Position numbers and translations under genes: made by a program. A model generated the notes under the pieces. The model worked only from the letters and a program-made list of their open reading frames with translations, had not been told where the DNA came from and ran no database searches. A stretch of 64,000 bases of DNA. Origin: an uncultured Pelagibacteraceae bacterium (GTDB lineage Bacteria; Pseudomonadota; Alphaproteobacteria; Pelagibacterales; Pelagibacteraceae). Shown here in pieces: positions 8,909-17,417 of the stretch. Positions within the stretch are counted from its first letter, which is position 1. Every line of letters begins with the position of its first letter. The DNA lies in NCBI GenBank assembly GCA_902576045.1, contig CACGTU010000002.1:1-64000 (forward strand), read 5' to 3'.

Positions 8909-10060
8909 TTATTTTTCTTTGATCGCAATTTTTTTGTTATACCAATTCATTAAAACTGAAATTGATAAACTTAACGACAGATAAGTAAGCATCGTTATTG
9001 AAACTATTTCTATCGCTTTACCTGTTTGCATTAATGCAGTCCCAGCAAAAACTAGGACTAGATCTGGATATGCAATTGCAGCAGCTAAAGAAGAATTTTT
9101 TGTTAAATTTAAATATTGGTTGGTTGTTGGTGGTATAATTATTCTTAAAGCTTGAGGCATAACAACTAACTTTAAAATTTGATTAGGATTTAAACCAATA
9201 GAAGCTGCGGCTTCTTTTTGACCTTTTCCAACACCTTGAATTCCAGCTCTTACACATTCGGCAATAAAAGTTGCTGTATATAATGATAAAGCTAATGTTA
9301 AAGCAATTAATTCTGGAGGTATTCCAACGCCTCCTTCGTAAATATATGATGTTTTAGCTAACTTCTTGAGAACAGGTATTTCGAAACTTAGTGATACACC
9401 TCCGATTAAAAAACTTAACAACGGTAGAATAAGTAATAAGCCTATTGATATTAAAAATACTGGTATTTGTTTTCCTTCATTTTCTTGTTTTCTTTTCGCA
9501 TAATTTTTAATTACTACAATTGATACTACTGCAGCAATTATTGAATATAAAAAAATATTAAAATTTTCCCATATAAAAGCTGGGATAAACAAACCTTTAA
9601 TTGTCAAATAAAAGACTCCCATGATACTCTCAGTATCTTGAGGCAATGGCAAAGCTCTTAAAGCTGCAAAGTACCAAAAGAAAATTTGTAATAAGAGTGG
9701 GATGTTTCTAAAAAATTCTACATAAAAGGCTGCTGTGTTTTTAATTAAGTAATTTGAAGATAATCTTGCAATACCAACTATTACACCAATTATAGTTGCT
9801 AAAATTATACCAATTACTGAAACTAAAATTGTGTTTAGAAGTCCTACTAAATAAGCTCTAAAATATGAGTGTGATCCATCATACTCAATTAAGGAAAATT
9901 GAACATCGAATGAAGACTCCTGACTTAAAAAACCATAACCAAAATCTATACCTCGATTTTCCATATTAAGTTGAGCATTGTATGAAAAGAAGCCAAACAC
10001 CAATATTACAAATAAAAGTGTTAATAATTGTGGTGCGATTTTTTTGATATTAAATTTCAC
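8909..10060 (-). CDS. aapQ: General L-amino-acid ABC transporter permease (AapQ/YhdX)
   Basis: A 383-residue inner-membrane permease with about eight hydrophobic segments. The EAA loop GIQGVGKGQKEAAASIGLNP near residue 275 contacts the ATPase. An inserted hydrophobic pair between about residues 165 and 215 distinguishes AapQ/YhdX from shorter HisQ-type subunits. It starts 61 bases after the aapJ stop, beyond an intrinsic terminator, so permease and ATPase genes are probably made at lower levels than the binding protein, by read-through. Confidence 0.94.
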   Translation of the reverse strand: MKFNIKKIAPQLLTLLFVILVFGFFSYNAQLNMENRGIDFGYGFLSQESSFDVQFSLIEYDGSHSYFRAYLVGLLNTILVSVIGIILATIIGVIVGIARLSSNYLIKNTAAFYVEFFRNIPLLLQIFFWYFAALRALPLPQDTESIMGVFYLTIKGLFIPAFIWENFNIFLYSIIAAVVSIVVIKNYAKRKQENEGKQIPVFLISIGLLLILPLLSFLIGGVSLSFEIPVLKKLAKTSYIYEGGVGIPPELIALTLALSLYTATFIAECVRAGIQGVGKGQKEAAASIGLNPNQILKLVVMPQALRIIIPPTTNQYLNLTKNSSLAAAIAYPDLVLVFAGTALMQTGKAIEIVSITMLTYLSLSLSISVLMNWYNKKIAIKEK

Positions 10061-10071
10061 GGAGATTTTAT

Positions 10072-10104
10072 AAAAAAAAGGGCTAGAAAAATCTAGCCCT
10101 TTTT
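10072..10104 (-). terminator. Intrinsic terminator/attenuator between aapJ and aapQ
   Basis: AGGGCTAGA pairs with TCTAGCCCT (9 bp) around an AAAA loop. On the minus strand it is followed by an uninterrupted T-run, and an A/T extension lengthens the stem. It lies 18 bases after the aapJ stop and 12 bases before the aapQ start. The likely role is to trim most transcripts after the abundant binding protein. Confidence 0.85.
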
Positions 10105-10121
10105 CATTAATTAATTAGCAA

Positions 10122-11162
10122 TTATCTTGCTGGTGGTACGTAAAGAATTCCACCTTTTGTCCATAATTGGTTTGGACCTCTGTCTGGTAAAATTCCAGGA
10201 GCAGCAATATTTCTTTCGTAGCTTTCTCCGTAGTTACCAACTTGCTTAATGATTCTTAAGCTCCACTCATTATCTAATCCAAAAGCAGCACCTAATTCAC
10301 CTTCTGCTCCAACTAATCTTTTAATAGCTGGGTTGTCAGATGTTTTCATCATATCAGCGTTAGCAGATGTAATGCCATATTCTTCAGCTTCGATCATTGT
10401 GTTTAGTGACCATCTTACGATGTCTTCCCAAACAGCATCACCTTGTCTAACAACAGGGCCTAAAGGCTCTTTTGATATAGTCTCAGGTAATACCATGTGA
10501 TCATCTGGATTTGACATTTTAGTTCTTTGTGCAGCAAGACCTGATTTATCTGTAGTGTAAGTATCGCATCTTCCAGCATCATAGGCAGCAACAACTTCGT
10601 CAGCTTTTTCAAAAGCTACTGGTTCATATGAAATTCCTTTAGAATTAAAGAAGTCTCTCATGTTAAGCTCTGTAGTTGTACCAATGTTTGTACATGCAGA
10701 AATACCATCTTTGAAATCATTCACTGAATTAATTCCAGAATTTTTTCTTACCATGAAACCTTGACCATCATAAAAGTTTACACCAACAAATGTTAAACCA
10801 ATGTCAGCATCTCTAGACAATGTCCAAGTTGTGTTTCTTGATAATACATCGATCTCTCCAGATGTAAGTGCAGTAAATCTTTCTTTAGCACTTAGTGGAG
10901 TAAATTTAACTTTACTTGCATCACCTAGTACTGCAGCAGCTACCGCTCTACATACATCAACGTCAACACCAGTCCAGTTTCCTGCAGCATCAGCATTAGA
11001 AAATCCTGGAAGACCTTGTGAAACACCACATCTCACAAAACCTTTTTTCTGAGTATTTTTAAGAGTTTTAGATTTCTTAGCAGCCATAGTTTCAGTTGTA
11101 AATGCAAACAGAACTGCAAATACAGCAACTAAAGAAGTCAATTGTTTTACTATTTTAAACAT
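10122..11162 (-). CDS. aapJ: General L-amino-acid ABC transporter, periplasmic binding protein (AapJ/YhdW)
   Basis: A 346-residue secreted solute-binding protein that captures polar L-amino acids in the periplasm. The signal peptide runs from MFKIVKQ through a hydrophobic core to TMAA, with cleavage likely after about residue 28. The mature SBP family 3 fold begins GFVRCGVSQGLPGFS. GNWTGVDVDVCRAVAAAVLG and TWTLSRDADIGLTFVGVNFY are typical AapJ segments. The ATG has a strong GAGGAAG ribosome site. The gene heads aapJQMP; two inverted repeats sit in its leader and a terminator follows it. In SAR11 this protein (YhdW) is known, from memory, to respond to nitrogen limitation, and the ntrYX genes lie close by. 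Confidence 0.96.
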   Translation of the reverse strand: MFKIVKQLTSLVAVFAVLFAFTTETMAAKKSKTLKNTQKKGFVRCGVSQGLPGFSNADAAGNWTGVDVDVCRAVAAAVLGDASKVKFTPLSAKERFTALTSGEIDVLSRNTTWTLSRDADIGLTFVGVNFYDGQGFMVRKNSGINSVNDFKDGISACTNIGTTTELNMRDFFNSKGISYEPVAFEKADEVVAAYDAGRCDTYTTDKSGLAAQRTKMSNPDDHMVLPETISKEPLGPVVRQGDAVWEDIVRWSLNTMIEAEEYGITSANADMMKTSDNPAIKRLVGAEGELGAAFGLDNEWSLRIIKQVGNYGESYERNIAAPGILPDRGPNQLWTKGGILYVPPAR

Positions 11163-11454: not shown

Positions 11455-12864
11455 TTAATTTTTGAAAAGGAATTTTTTTATTAAAATCAATAATGTCAAT
11501 AATTCAATTCTACCGATAATCATAAATATGATTAAGGATAATTTGGATATAACATTTATGCTGAAAAAATTAAAATCAGCTAATCCATACATAGATGAAT
11601 TTACAGTATTCATAATCGTTAAAATTCCTAACTTGAATGAATTTTCAAATTTTATGCCTGATATAGTCAATAAACTTGAGACAGCAAAAAGTGAAATAAT
11701 AAAAACTAAAACAGTTAAAAAATATTTATTTACGTCAGATTTATCTGTGTTTGATTTTAACAAAGTAACTTTATTTAAATAAATTTGATTTGGTTTGGTG
11801 TTGGAAAGCAAATTATTTAAGGAGTATTTAAGTAAACTCAATATCTTAATTACCCTCAAACCTGAGCTAGTAGAAAAAAATGATCCCCCAATAATTACTA
11901 AAATAAGAAAAATAAATGATAAATTTGACGGTATATTCTCAAAAGAAATACCTAGATTTGAAACACTACTAGATAAAGAAACTAAAATATTTAGAAAATT
12001 ATTTTCAGAATTAAAAAAAATAAATAAAATTGAAATTATTATTATTAGATATAGTGCTAAATATAAATCTTCGCTAAGATAATTTAGATTATTTTTTTTA
12101 AAAAAAATTAAATTATAAATAAAAAACAAACTGAAATATGATGATAGTATTAAAATTGATAATATAATTTTACTCAAGTCACTCTCAAATAAGCTGTCAA
12201 AATTATTCATAGGTAAAAAACCACCAGAGGAAATTATTGTCATTGATAAATTAAAAGAGTCAAAAGTCCTTAAATTTATCAATTTTAAAAATATAAAAAT
12301 AATAAAAGTAATTGATGAATAAATTATTATTATTTTTAAAGATTGTTTTAATGTTTCAGAGGAATTAAATGATATGTAATTTGTTAATGATTTTTTTAAA
12401 TTATCATCAAAAATATCTATTAATAAAAGTAGAGAAAATAAAAAATATAATCCACCTATCCATTGTGATGATGATCTCCATATAATTAGACTTTGATCTA
12501 ATTGTTTAATATTATCAAAAATAGAAAAACCTGTAGATGTAAATCCTGATATTGCCTCAAAATAGGAGTTTAAATAAGAAATATTATTTATACTGAAGTA
12601 AAAAGGTAATGAAATAATTACTGGAAAAAATAAATAACCTATTATTACTATTAATATTTTCTCATAAATATTAATTTTTTTAAAATGAATTCGTTTAAAA
12701 AAAATTAAAAATAAACCAAGAGTTAAAGTAAATAAAAAAATAATAAAGTAAGTATTTATATTTAAAAATAAATTTAAGTAATATGAATAAATGATGTTTA
12801 AAAAGGAAAATAAACTAATCAAAAGAGTAAATGACCCAATAAAAATTAAACTAAATCTGCTCAT
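11455..12864 (-). CDS. trkH: Trk potassium uptake system, membrane subunit (TrkH family)
   Basis: A 469-residue membrane protein of the Trk/Ktr/HKT superfamily that forms the potassium channel gated by TrkA. About ten hydrophobic segments are visible. Degenerate selectivity-filter motifs recur, clearest in ISGFTSTGFSIFDN (near residue 105), with later ones at ISSGGFLP and ISFENIPSN-like positions. The C-terminus ends GRIELLTLLILIKKF, typical of TrkH. It is 7 bases downstream of trkA and shares its transcript. The length is slightly below the usual 480-500. The tRNA-Arg follows on the same strand. Confidence 0.9.
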   Translation of the reverse strand: MSRFSLIFIGSFTLLISLFSFLNIIYSYYLNLFLNINTYFIIFLFTLTLGLFLIFFKRIHFKKINIYEKILIVIIGYLFFPVIISLPFYFSINNISYLNSYFEAISGFTSTGFSIFDNIKQLDQSLIIWRSSSQWIGGLYFLFSLLLLIDIFDDNLKKSLTNYISFNSSETLKQSLKIIIIYSSITFIIFIFLKLINLRTFDSFNLSMTIISSGGFLPMNNFDSLFESDLSKIILSILILSSYFSLFFIYNLIFFKKNNLNYLSEDLYLALYLIIIISILFIFFNSENNFLNILVSLSSSVSNLGISFENIPSNLSFIFLILVIIGGSFFSTSSGLRVIKILSLLKYSLNNLLSNTKPNQIYLNKVTLLKSNTDKSDVNKYFLTVLVFIISLFAVSSLLTISGIKFENSFKLGILTIMNTVNSSMYGLADFNFFSINVISKLSLIIFMIIGRIELLTLLILIKKFLFKN

Positions 12865-12871
12865 TAATTTT

Positions 12872-14245
12872 TTAGATAGAGCTTATTCTGAATAAATTTT
12901 CTACTGTTGGTAATTGATCTCTTTTAGAGAGCAATACAATTATATCATTTTTTTGAAATTTATAGTTTGAACTAGGTTTTATGAACTCATCTCCTCTAAG
13001 TATAGATCCAATTCTTATATCGTCTGGAAGATCAGAGTCTTTTAATTCTTTGTTTATTAAATCAGATGATTCTAATATTTCTGCCTCAATAACTTCATAA
13101 TCTCCATTCAAAATTGTATAAGCATTTTCTATAGTGCCTTTATGAACATGTTTAAGAATACTAGAAACTGTATCCATTCTTGGGTCGATCATATCATCTA
13201 TTTTTAGAGATGTTTGTAGAAGAGAATAATTTGGCTTATTTATTAAGGCCATTGTTCTTTTATCTTTAGAGAATTTTTCTACAAGTACACTTACCATTAA
13301 ATTATCTTCATCATCATTGGTTAAAGCTAATACTGTCTCTACTTCATCTATGTTAGCTTCATTTAATACATCCTCATCAAGTCCATTACCATTGATAACA
13401 ATTGTGTCATTTAAATCATTGGCAATTAATTCTGCTCTTTCTTTGCTTTTCTCTATTATTTTTACTCTTGCAGACTCAAATGTTTCCTCAATATTTTTAG
13501 CTAAATTAAAACCAATATTTCCTCCACCAATTATTAGTATTTTATTTGATTTTTTTTCGTTATGACCAAATACTTTTAGAGTTTCCTCCATTTGATTTGA
13601 GCTTACCATGACATAAGCTTTGTCGTTGTGTTCTAAGGAATCGTTTTTCTTTAATATTTTAAATTCACCTTTTCTTATAACTCCTAAAATATATGCATTT
13701 AATTTAGGAAATTTTTTTGTGAGATCGTTTAGTTTTATGCCATTTATTGGACAATTGTCGTCTATTAGTATCTCTAAAAGTCTAATTTTATTTTCTACAA
13801 ATGGTACATTATCGAGGGCACCTGGAGCTTCTAGTTTTCTTTGTAAAGATTTTGCTATTTCTAACTCTGGTGAAATAACATAATCGATAGGCAGATTTTC
13901 CCTATTGAATAATGTAGAAAATTTTGGATCTAAATATTCTTGAGACCGGATTCTTGCAATTTTTTTTGGGACTTTAAAAATTGAATATGCTATTTGGCAA
14001 ATTAACATATTTATCTCATCATTTCTTGTGACTGCAATAATCATATCAGCGTCACTAGTATTAGCTCTCTCTAAAACTGATGGAGAAGTTGCTTTTCCAA
14101 CTATAGCTTTAACATCAAGGCTATCATTTATTTTCTGTATATCATCACCAGACTGATCAATTACTGTAATTGAATGATTTTGTTCTGTTAATAATTTTGC
14201 TATTGTGAAACCGACCCTACCGGCGCCACATATGATAATATTCAT
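12872..14245 (-). CDS. trkA: Trk system potassium uptake regulatory protein TrkA
   Basis: A 457-residue cytoplasmic NAD-binding gating subunit of the Trk potassium transporter. It has two copies of the TrkA-N/TrkA-C unit: a Rossmann fold at CGAGRVGFTIAKLL (residues 6-19) and a second at IGGGNIGFNLA near residue 240, each followed by a TrkA-C ligand-binding domain. It starts one base after the ntrX stop and precedes trkH by 7 bases. The ntrY-ntrX-trkA order is the classic alphaproteobacterial arrangement, which ties potassium uptake to the Ntr two-component genes on one transcript. Confidence 0.95.
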   Translation of the reverse strand: MNIIICGAGRVGFTIAKLLTEQNHSITVIDQSGDDIQKINDSLDVKAIVGKATSPSVLERANTSDADMIIAVTRNDEINMLICQIAYSIFKVPKKIARIRSQEYLDPKFSTLFNRENLPIDYVISPELEIAKSLQRKLEAPGALDNVPFVENKIRLLEILIDDNCPINGIKLNDLTKKFPKLNAYILGVIRKGEFKILKKNDSLEHNDKAYVMVSSNQMEETLKVFGHNEKKSNKILIIGGGNIGFNLAKNIEETFESARVKIIEKSKERAELIANDLNDTIVINGNGLDEDVLNEANIDEVETVLALTNDDEDNLMVSVLVEKFSKDKRTMALINKPNYSLLQTSLKIDDMIDPRMDTVSSILKHVHKGTIENAYTILNGDYEVIEAEILESSDLINKELKDSDLPDDIRIGSILRGDEFIKPSSNYKFQKNDIIVLLSKRDQLPTVENLFRISSI

Positions 14246-15601
14246 CTAATTTAGATCCTTTACACCTAGAATTTTTAGCTTTCTATGTAAGGCTGATCTT
14301 TCCATGCCAACAAATTTTGCAGTTTTTGATATATTTCCACCAAATTTTTTTATCTGTGAAATTAAATATTCTTTTTCAAACGTCTCCCTTGCCTCTCTTA
14401 GTGGCACTGAAAGAGTATCTGTTACAGAAAAGTTTTCATCTAAAGATCTAGATAGCGATTCTTTTACAATATTAATTATCTTATCCTGATTGTCTCCTGG
14501 TGATAAAATTGCTATTCTTTCAATTAAGTTTCTTAATTCTCTTACATTACCTGGCCAATCATAGTTAAGTAGATAATTGTTATCTTTTATTGAAAATTTT
14601 TTGTAACTATAAGTATTGCAAATATTTTCTATAAAATAATCTATTAATAGTGGAATATCTTCAATTCTCTTGGTTAATGGATCAATTTTAATATTAAAAA
14701 CATTTAGTCTGTGAAAAAGATCTTCTCTAAAATTTCCATTTTTTATTTCTGTTGACATATCTTTGCTCGTTGAACAGAAAATTCTTACATCTACTTTGAT
14801 ATCATGGTTACCATTTAATCTTTTAAATTTTTGATCAATCATTACTCTTAAAATCTTAGATTGTGTTTCTAAAGGAATTTCTGTTACTTCATCAATTAAT
14901 AATACACCTCCAGATGCTTTTTCAAACGCACCATATAAAATAGATCCATCTTTTTTTTCTTCACCGAAAAGTTCTAATTCATACTTTTTTGCATCTAGCA
15001 AGGCACCATTTATGATGACAAACGGACCATTTTTTCTTTTAGATTTTTTATAAATTTTTCTTGCAACTAATTCCTTTCCAGAACCTGTTGGACCATTTAT
15101 AAATACTCTACTTTCAGATTGTGAAAGTTTTTCTATTTGATCTTTGATAGAGATAATGTTGTTACTTTTGCCAATAAGATCAAAAGAATGAAATAATTTG
15201 TTACTTAAATTTTTATTTTCTTTTTTGAGGTTAAAATTTTCAACTGCTCTATTCACAAAATTAAGCAATCTATCCTTGTCGAACGGTTTTTGTATAAATT
15301 CAAAAGCTCCTGATTTCAATGAATTAACAGCCATCTCAATATTTGCGTGGCCTGAAATCATAATTACAGGTATATCGTTATTTTTTTGCTTAATATGTTC
15401 CAAAAGTTGAATACCGTCATTGTCTCCCTTATCTAACTTTACATCTATAATTGCTACATCAGGAAGTTTTTTATCTATTTCAGTTAATGCTTGGTTAAAA
15501 TTTGCAGCTAACCTAGTTTTATATCCAGCATCTTTTATAAGCTCTTCTAATATAAGCCTTATGTCCGAGTTATCGTCTATTATTAAAATTTCAACCGACA
15601 T
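14246..15601 (-). CDS. ntrX: NtrX-type response regulator with AAA+ domain lacking the GAFTGA loop
   Basis: A 451-residue partner of NtrY. The receiver domain has acidic residues D9-D10, the phosphoacceptor D53 (IIDVKLD) and K105. The AAA+ domain has Walker A GPTGSGKE (170-177) and Walker B LLIDE (234-238), and a Fis-type HTH lies at about 423-445. The stretch between LFGEEKKDG and GAFEKASGG, where bacterial enhancer-binding proteins carry GAFTGA to engage sigma-54, is changed and the motif is absent. SAR11 genomes are known to lack rpoN, so this NtrX probably acts on sigma-70 promoters. It is followed directly by trkA and preceded by ntrY, 4 bases apart. Confidence 0.94.
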   Translation of the reverse strand: MSVEILIIDDNSDIRLILEELIKDAGYKTRLAANFNQALTEIDKKLPDVAIIDVKLDKGDNDGIQLLEHIKQKNNDIPVIMISGHANIEMAVNSLKSGAFEFIQKPFDKDRLLNFVNRAVENFNLKKENKNLSNKLFHSFDLIGKSNNIISIKDQIEKLSQSESRVFINGPTGSGKELVARKIYKKSKRKNGPFVIINGALLDAKKYELELFGEEKKDGSILYGAFEKASGGVLLIDEVTEIPLETQSKILRVMIDQKFKRLNGNHDIKVDVRIFCSTSKDMSTEIKNGNFREDLFHRLNVFNIKIDPLTKRIEDIPLLIDYFIENICNTYSYKKFSIKDNNYLLNYDWPGNVRELRNLIERIAILSPGDNQDKIINIVKESLSRSLDENFSVTDTLSVPLREARETFEKEYLISQIKKFGGNISKTAKFVGMERSALHRKLKILGVKDLN

Positions 15602-15605
15602 CTAA

Positions 15606-17381
15606 TTATTTATTTGGTAATATAATTTTAACTTTTGCTCCATTTTTATGATTCAAAAATTGTATTGATCCATTATGATCACTTATAATTTTATCTACAA
15701 TCGAAAGCCCTAAGCCTGTCCCTTTTTCTTTTGTTGTAAAATATGGTTTTATTAATTCTTTCGTTTTTTTGTTTTTAAAACCTATACCACTGTCAATGAC
15801 ATTAACAATTATATAGTCTCTTCTTTGCCTTATTTCTATATCTATATTTTTGTCAATTTTACTATCTTTTTCGGCTTTCTCTTGAATACTTTCCAGAGAA
15901 TTTTTAATCAAATTAAAAAATAATCTATTAAATTGTTCTAAATCAAAATTAATATTAATCTCTTTTGATAAATGATTAATAAGTTTGATTTTTATATTTG
16001 AATCAATTTTATTAATTAAGTTTATATTCTCATTTATAACTTTATTTAAATTATTTTTTTTTAATAAGGGCTTTGGCATTCGTGCAAAATCTGAAAATTC
16101 ATTTACTAAATTTTCAATTTGTTTGATCTGTTTTTGTATAGTTTGAAGATTGTTATTAAATTTATCTTTGTTTTCTATCTCAATATTTTTTAAATACTTC
16201 GACTTAATATTATCGATTGTCAACTGTATGGGGGTGAGCGGATTTTTGATTTCGTGAGCAAGTTTTCTTGCAACATTTTCCCAAGCTTCATGTCTTTCAG
16301 AGGTAAGTAATTTTTCTTGTTGGCTTTTTAGTCTGTCTATCATTGAATTAAAATTTTTATTTAAAAGCTCCATCTCTTTGTCAGCTTTAAGCTCTGGTAC
16401 TTTGGTATCTAAATTTCCTTTACCAATTTTTTCTGAGGCTGAAATTAAATTGTTAATTGATATAAAAAATCTTGATGAAAATCTAATTGCTATTGTAATC
16501 GATAAAAATAACAATAATGTTACTAAAGCTATATATATAAGAGCAAAGGAGATTCTTATACCTAAACTTTGATTTTCAACTGTGTAATAAAAATTAACCG
16601 CTTCTTCAGATTGTATTAGATATTGTGATATATTTTTATCAATTAATTTTACTACGTATAAAAAAGTATCATTATAATTAGTTAACCTAATGACGGCTGC
16701 AGATTTATTCTCAAATGTATTTATTATTTTCAAAGGTCTATCATCATTTAAAACCATTTTAATAGCTCTATCTTCAATTTTTTTATACGATGATTTACCT
16801 GCTGAAAGAATTAAATCTCCATTTCCATCAATCAAATGTAATTGGTCAATATCTCTTATAAGTCTTTGAGTATTTAAAAGAGATTGAAATCTTTGAGGAT
16901 TGTCATTTATTAAATTTGAATATTTATTTAGATCAAAAGCAATTAAAATTATTTCAGATTCGATTTTGTTTCTTTTTTCCTCAACATAATTTTTTGCTAT
17001 TTCATATGAATTATTTACAGCAGATGTGATTTTTGTGTCAAAATATTTATCTAAAGCAAATGAAAAAATAAATAGAGAAAATATAGAAATTAATAATGAA
17101 GGAATTAAAGTAAATAATCCAAACGAAATAATATATTTTCTATTTGCAATTGCTCCTTTAACATTTATGTTATTTTTTATTGAATTTTTAATATCAAAAA
17201 AAATTAAAATAAAAAAAATAATCAATAATATAAAGTTAAATATTAATAAGGTTTGAAGATTATTATCATTAAGATTAATAAAACTTTTGCCTATAAATGT
17301 TAAAAAAGTAATGAAACCTAATGATAGTGTAAAAATAAAAATTATTATTATAAATAAATTTCTTTTTAACAAAGCAAACAT
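15606..17381 (-). CDS. ntrY: NtrY-type membrane sensor histidine kinase
   Basis: A 591-residue inner-membrane kinase proposed to sense nitrogen or redox state and phosphorylate NtrX. Membrane segments lie at about 8-30, 45-62 and 85-110, then a roughly 170-residue periplasmic domain, and a fourth segment at about 278-300. A HAMP linker (RFFISINNLISASEKIGKGN) follows. The H-box is KLAHEIKNPLTP with H376. The N, G1 and G2 boxes of the ATPase domain end the protein (FNLIKNSLESI, DSGIGF, GTGLGLSI). A typical NtrY has an extra PAS domain between HAMP and H-box; here HAMP runs nearly straight into the kinase, so it is shortened. It is divergent from ispDF, with a 36-base gap. Confidence 0.94.
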   Translation of the reverse strand: MFALLKRNLFIIIIFIFTLSLGFITFLTFIGKSFINLNDNNLQTLLIFNFILLIIFFILIFFDIKNSIKNNINVKGAIANRKYIISFGLFTLIPSLLISIFSLFIFSFALDKYFDTKITSAVNNSYEIAKNYVEEKRNKIESEIILIAFDLNKYSNLINDNPQRFQSLLNTQRLIRDIDQLHLIDGNGDLILSAGKSSYKKIEDRAIKMVLNDDRPLKIINTFENKSAAVIRLTNYNDTFLYVVKLIDKNISQYLIQSEEAVNFYYTVENQSLGIRISFALIYIALVTLLLFLSITIAIRFSSRFFISINNLISASEKIGKGNLDTKVPELKADKEMELLNKNFNSMIDRLKSQQEKLLTSERHEAWENVARKLAHEIKNPLTPIQLTIDNIKSKYLKNIEIENKDKFNNNLQTIQKQIKQIENLVNEFSDFARMPKPLLKKNNLNKVINENINLINKIDSNIKIKLINHLSKEININFDLEQFNRLFFNLIKNSLESIQEKAEKDSKIDKNIDIEIRQRRDYIIVNVIDSGIGFKNKKTKELIKPYFTTKEKGTGLGLSIVDKIISDHNGSIQFLNHKNGAKVKIILPNK

Positions 17382-17417
17382 AATTTAAAGATATATTACT
17401 ATTTATAAAATATAAAC

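Follow-up and report, generated by a model that had tools for sequence, protein, structure and literature searches.

The analysed window is a stretch of 64,000 nucleotides in which ntrX occupies 14246..15601 on the minus strand as a complete open reading frame of 451 amino acids; the plus strand there is full of stops. The gene order on the minus strand is ntrY, ntrX, trkA and a trkH-like gene, and ispDF, pgpA and cinA run the opposite way from a 36-bp A+T-rich gap (17382..17417) between the divergent ntrY and ispDF. The histidine kinase gene ntrY (15606..17381, minus strand, 591 amino acids) ends 4 bp ahead of the ntrX start, and its product was found by Pfam to carry NtrY_N, HAMP, HisKA and HATPase_c domains and no PAS domain. 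Directly after ntrX on the same strand lies trkA (12872..14245), followed by the trkH-like potassium uptake subunit (11455..12864, minus strand), both assigned from Pfam and NCBIfam. It was noted that an amino-acid ABC permease and a family-3 binding protein are encoded just downstream of this ntrYX-trk block (8909-11162, minus strand), and these genes are possible nitrogen-scavenging targets.

The ntrX product comprises a receiver (REC; residues 5-116, Response_reg), an AAA+ domain (residues 142-304, Sigma54_activat) with its lid (AAA_lid_14), and a Fis-type helix-turn-helix (HTH_8, PF02954; residues 405-443, 14273..14389), all on the minus strand, and the REC, AAA+ and Fis HTH domains all score above the Pfam cut-off over the full length. 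The phospho-acceptor of the receiver, D53 (15443..15445, minus strand), was placed by alignment, as was Walker A, GPTGSGKE (residues 170-177, 15071..15094, minus strand). Walker B reads LLIDEV (residues 234-239), with its D237-E238 pair (14888..14893, minus strand) intact, and both arginine fingers, R292 and R298, are intact in the segment FREDLFHRL that begins at residue 291 (14708..14728, minus strand). The best NCBIfam match is the NtrX family NF051870, aligned over positions 2-452 of 452. The score of 554 bits lies below the curated cut-off of 600 bits; this cut-off was reached in none of 197 Pelagibacterales genomes, and the missing score is an annotation threshold and less a biological feature.

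We compared the window ntrX with eight relatives and obtained dN/dS values of 0.029-0.055; in six of these eight comparisons dS had reached saturation, at about 2 or more. The gene is thus under strong purifying selection. Across 145 Pelagibacterales NtrX proteins, 71 positions were invariant; D53, D237, R298 and residues of Walker A are among them, as is a large part of the HTH. An AlphaFold model of the window protein had a mean pLDDT of 85 and a pTM of 0.57, and its domain arrangement is uncertain because of the latter value.

The position of GAFTGA is taken by a shortened loop (residues 214-227, 14921..14962, minus strand; sequence and alignment), and the protein there reads ELFG-EEKKDGSILYGAFE-KASGG with no GAFTGA. 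The sequence from ELFG (residues 210-213) to the Walker B strand is EEKKDGSILYGAFEKASGG. No 6-mer of this stretch is fewer than two mismatches from GAFTGA, and the one near match of the protein at two mismatches is an unrelated LYGAFEK stretch. The span from E210 to V239 is 30 residues in the window NtrX compared to 34 in 28 of 30 NtrC-type and other bEBP controls, four fewer, and the exact GAFTGA was present in 25 of these 30 controls. When the loops were read in 145 Pelagibacterales NtrX, out of 164 genomes with NtrX, GAFTGA was found in none. The shortened loop is not a sequencing slip, because the same kind of NtrX occurs in these 145 Pelagibacterales genomes and in 80 close relatives from named records. 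The named records nearest to the window protein belong to uncultured Pelagibacteraceae, which supports a SAR11 origin. The initial annotation, made from the letters of the window, had placed the replacement of GAFTGA between residues 212 and 230, which we confirmed, adding the minus strand. Its description of Walker A, Walker B and the Fis-type HTH as intact agreed with Pfam and the alignment, and its observation that D53 is kept extended to 144 of 145 Pelagibacterales NtrX, the remaining one being a truncated protein.

We then considered sigma-54. The rpoN profile PF04552 gave no match in the genome from which the window derives (83% complete) and no match above the family cut-off in any of 197 genomes of the order, bearing out the earlier statement that SAR11 lacks rpoN. 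Three sub-threshold PF04552 matches (19.5-19.8 bits) were rejected as a hidden rpoN; they sit in frames of 874/843 amino acids that carry SecA. TIGR02395 likewise found nothing in the source genome or in two other Pelagibacterales, and in the alphaproteobacterial class sample of 192 genomes it matched in 148 (144 above cut-off). The joint presence of rpoN and sigma-54 promoters, named at the outset as what would speak against the annotation, was looked for in the genome and not found. The -24/-12 consensus had one exact match in the genome compared to zero for the reversed control, and this single match is not evidence of sigma-54 promoters. The canonical features of a sigma-54 enhancer-binding protein are thus partly present: the window NtrX keeps both Walker motifs and the arginine fingers, and GAFTGA and rpoN are missing. 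In PMC13198564, only sigma-70 and sigma-32 are described for SAR11 strain HTCC1062, together with four two-component systems that include NtrY/NtrX.

From these observations, we consider it likely that the window protein is the SAR11 orthologue of alphaproteobacterial NtrX, acting as a phospho-regulated DNA-binding regulator at sigma-70-type promoters and not as a sigma-54 remodeller. Judging from the family, the partner gene and the intact residues, NtrY, encoded just upstream, would phosphorylate D53, and phosphorylation would alter the oligomeric state of NtrX. The protein would then bind DNA through its Fis-type HTH and could serve as activator or repressor at sigma-70-type promoters, as suggested by the absence of rpoN and by its relatives. 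GAFTGA being absent, it would presumably do so without remodelling a sigma-54 polymerase, with the AAA+ domain as a putative ATP-binding, dimer- or oligomer-forming module. PMC7240162 reports six regions bound by Rhodobacter sphaeroides NtrX in ChIP-seq, with NtrX as activator and perhaps repressor. The motif given there, GCA-N9-TGC, occurred four times in the 64-kb window compared to 7.8 expected, with none beside ntrY and no match in the 36-bp gap. No target or binding site of NtrX thus came to light, a point against the reading given above. No conserved palindrome was seen by eye in the ntrY/ispDF gap in 30 of 76 regions, of which five were mis-anchored inside ntrY.

The closest solved counterpart is the NtrX of Brucella abortus (5m7n/5m7o/5m7p), which shares the REC-AAA+-Fis architecture and is 44-47% identical along nearly all of the protein; the best match is full-length 5m7n (E 1.9e-125, residues 1-447). 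Its aligned loop, ELFGTEMDGGERKVGALEEAHGG, is also without GAFTGA, and the abstract of Fernandez et al. 2017 on this protein reportedly names the missing motif. Brucella are rpoN-bearing bacteria with larger genomes, unlike SAR11. According to the PDB titles, Brucella NtrX was solved with ATP and with ADP. When structures were ranked with the window model, Brucella NtrX chains came first, including the entries titled with ATP and ADP (Z 33.5, with an rmsd of 15 A across 426 residues that reflects domain placement), with NtrC4 tied at Z 32.8. The NtrX of Caulobacter is likewise reported to lack GAFTGA in PMC10274813. Caulobacter differs from SAR11 in keeping rpoN (its control genome was positive) and from the window in that NtrB/NtrC share the locus with NtrYX, as the same source indicates. 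The initial annotation had instead drawn its parallel to Rhodobacter capsulatus NtrC, a GAFTGA-less bEBP reported, in PMC10274813, to work with sigma-70. This parallel was not supported, as the protein is an NtrC rather than an NtrX, with what is presumably a separate loss and its own deletion, and the loss is general to alphaproteobacterial NtrX. The window gene is an ordinary, functional, GAFTGA-less SAR11 NtrX of a kind already known.

We assessed the ATP site across the order. The window NtrX keeps all catalytic residues that were looked at, including the Walker B glutamate E238, and because this glutamate is intact the protein may hydrolyse ATP. K176, D237, R298 and R354 were invariant in all 145 Pelagibacterales NtrX, and R292 was present in 140 (His in the other five). 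E238 was replaced in 56 of the 145, by Gln in 47, Asn in eight and His in one (e.g. L156, L185, L008). These 56 proteins all keep K176, D237, R292, R298 and R354, with N198 changed to Asp in two. They are not independent cases, because the replacements need only two changes away from Glu on the fast tree. Glutamate was found at this position in all 80 closest relatives from named records. In the NtrX clade outside SAR11, the DE pair of Walker B was kept in 58 of 68 proteins from genomes with an rpoN match and in 19 of 28 from genomes with none, compared to 29 of 30 controls; K176 was lost in 5/96 and R292 in 15/96. The ATP-site losses outside SAR11 look like general relaxation, and those within SAR11 appear nearly confined to the glutamate.

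ATP hydrolysis is probably not essential to the NtrX family, because the catalytic glutamate is gone from many SAR11 members whose ATP site is otherwise retained. The Gln state found in the 47 proteins is equivalent to the E108Q change of PspF. Going by the PDB titles, structures with ATP or ADP exist for two laboratory variants of Walker B, PspF E108Q (4qnm/4qnr/4qos) and a mutant of NtrC1 (3m0e); both are engineered and sigma-54 dependent, whereas the window NtrX keeps its glutamate. R. capsulatus NtrC is reported in PMC10274813 to require the binding of ATP but not its hydrolysis. Taken with the E238 losses and the PDB titles, this speaks for ATP being a structural ligand of NtrX. The authors of that work hold that hydrolysis matters in Caulobacter NtrC, which speaks against ATP as a mere ligand.

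The partner kinase also varies between groups. In 111 of 111 measured Pelagibacterales NtrY, the distance from the FNxM motif of HAMP to the H-box was 32 residues, with the PAS domain deleted (120 loci were inspected and nine gave no H-box frame). Among 36 other alphaproteobacterial NtrY (from 40 loci), the spacing was 141-167 in 32; two of one family (G282, G371) also had 32, and two gave no motif. Brucella NtrY differs from that of SAR11 in having a PAS domain, described as heme-binding in PMC7240162. Searches of the open-licence literature found neither the PAS loss of SAR11 NtrY nor the Walker B Gln/Asn variants of SAR11 NtrX. Both the Walker B replacements and the NtrY PAS loss concern the order rather than the window ntrX.

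These order-wide features allow a bolder reading, which we offer tentatively and rate as possible but the less probable course: Pelagibacterales NtrX might be ATP-gated rather than ATP-driven, the nucleotide serving as structural ligand or energy-charge signal with its turnover dispensable. Two SAR11 lineages would then have independently fixed an 'ATP-trap' Walker B (47 Gln plus one His; eight Asn). The PAS-less NtrY would no longer read a PAS signal, which is heme/redox in Brucella, and the drive would come from the periplasmic/membrane part of NtrY and from the ATP occupancy of NtrX. With the natural Glu, Gln and Asn variants of SAR11, it becomes testable whether hydrolysis of ATP is required in any way by a bEBP that works independently of sigma-54. 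PMC13198564 describes SAR11 as the most abundant heterotrophs in marine plankton, and the mode of NtrX action is ecologically interesting because an organism so abundant has only four two-component systems according to that paper.

It could also be asked whether NtrX, instead of binding promoters itself, acts by titration or by contacting other response regulators. An interaction of R. capsulatus NtrX with RegA is reported, and RegB/RegA are present in SAR11 according to PMC13198564. However, the HTH is highly conserved, with 13 of the 71 invariant positions falling within residues 423-445, and DNA is bound by R. sphaeroides NtrX according to PMC7240162, and we regard this mode of action as very improbable.

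NtrX was found in 164 of 197 Pelagibacterales genomes (counted as rows with a best E < 1e-80). It was not found in the other 33, where the best E was no better than about 1e-22, and 19 of these are listed at a completeness of at least 90%. Some lineages may truly have lost the gene, or the drafts may have gaps there. It was noted that one genome, G056 (97% complete), has zero PF00158 matches. Together with the replacement of E238 in 56 of 145 proteins, the 33 genomes without a match might suggest a decaying remnant with a functionless AAA+ domain that the order is shedding. This seems scarcely credible, as the NtrX-less genomes are mostly drafts, the Gln state is kept in 47 genomes and the 71 invariant positions span receiver, ATP site and HTH; a pseudogene or decay was rejected on the low dN/dS of ntrX.

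The age of the GAFTGA loss was examined across the class. One hundred further alphaproteobacterial proteins were taken as the best matches of 100 of the 192 genomes in the class sample (30 best-scoring, 60 favouring lower scores and rpoN-less genomes, and 10 low-scoring); 72 of these genomes had an rpoN match (69 above cut-off) and 28 had none. Duplicates or fragments were dropped (L253, equal to L006; L064-L071; L132-L134) and L135 (G004:C1:1-2000) was excluded. Neither GAFTGA nor a one-mismatch form was seen in any of the 245 proteins (145 plus 100), and six, the window NtrX included, came within two mismatches. In a FastTree phylogeny, the 145 Pelagibacterales proteins and 96 of the others formed one NtrX clade apart from NtrC, with a support of 76 by this fast method. 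Four alphaproteobacterial rows (G212, G243, G264, G346) fell outside and were left out of the 241, and one control (L196, likewise without GAFTGA) fell inside. None of the 241 clade members has GAFTGA. Among 30 proteins chosen from the phylum's other classes, 17 had GAFTGA or differed from it at one position.

In the clade outside SAR11, an rpoN match was present in the genomes of 68 of the 96 NtrX (65 above cut-off), and all were without GAFTGA; therefore the loss came first, occurs alongside rpoN and is older than the loss of rpoN. On these comparisons, the loss of GAFTGA is a class-wide trait of alphaproteobacterial NtrX, uncoupled from rpoN loss, and it is old and already described, for Caulobacter NtrX, in PMC10274813. 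The link originally drawn between the missing loop and the absence of rpoN in SAR11 was not upheld. That SAR11 lost GAFTGA through rpoN loss in genome streamlining, repurposing a sigma-54 activator within its own lineage, fits its GAFTGA-less NtrX and lack of rpoN but is contradicted by the rpoN-bearing genomes and is exceedingly unlikely, and with it a false lead is removed.

Several minor observations were made on the sampled proteins. Three of the NtrX-like best matches outside the clade (G243, G264 and G346; L100, L102 and L101) have a far larger loop deletion, with 19 residues across the span that takes 30 in the window NtrX and 34 in controls. One alphaproteobacterial NtrC above the ntrC cut-off (L214, from G375) is also without GAFTGA, reading ELFGVENKSAIVSMINPGRFE. 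A record titled as a Parcubacteria MAG (L357, NYYU01000017.1) carries a SAR11 NtrX at 87% identity and is probably a mislabelled or mixed bin.
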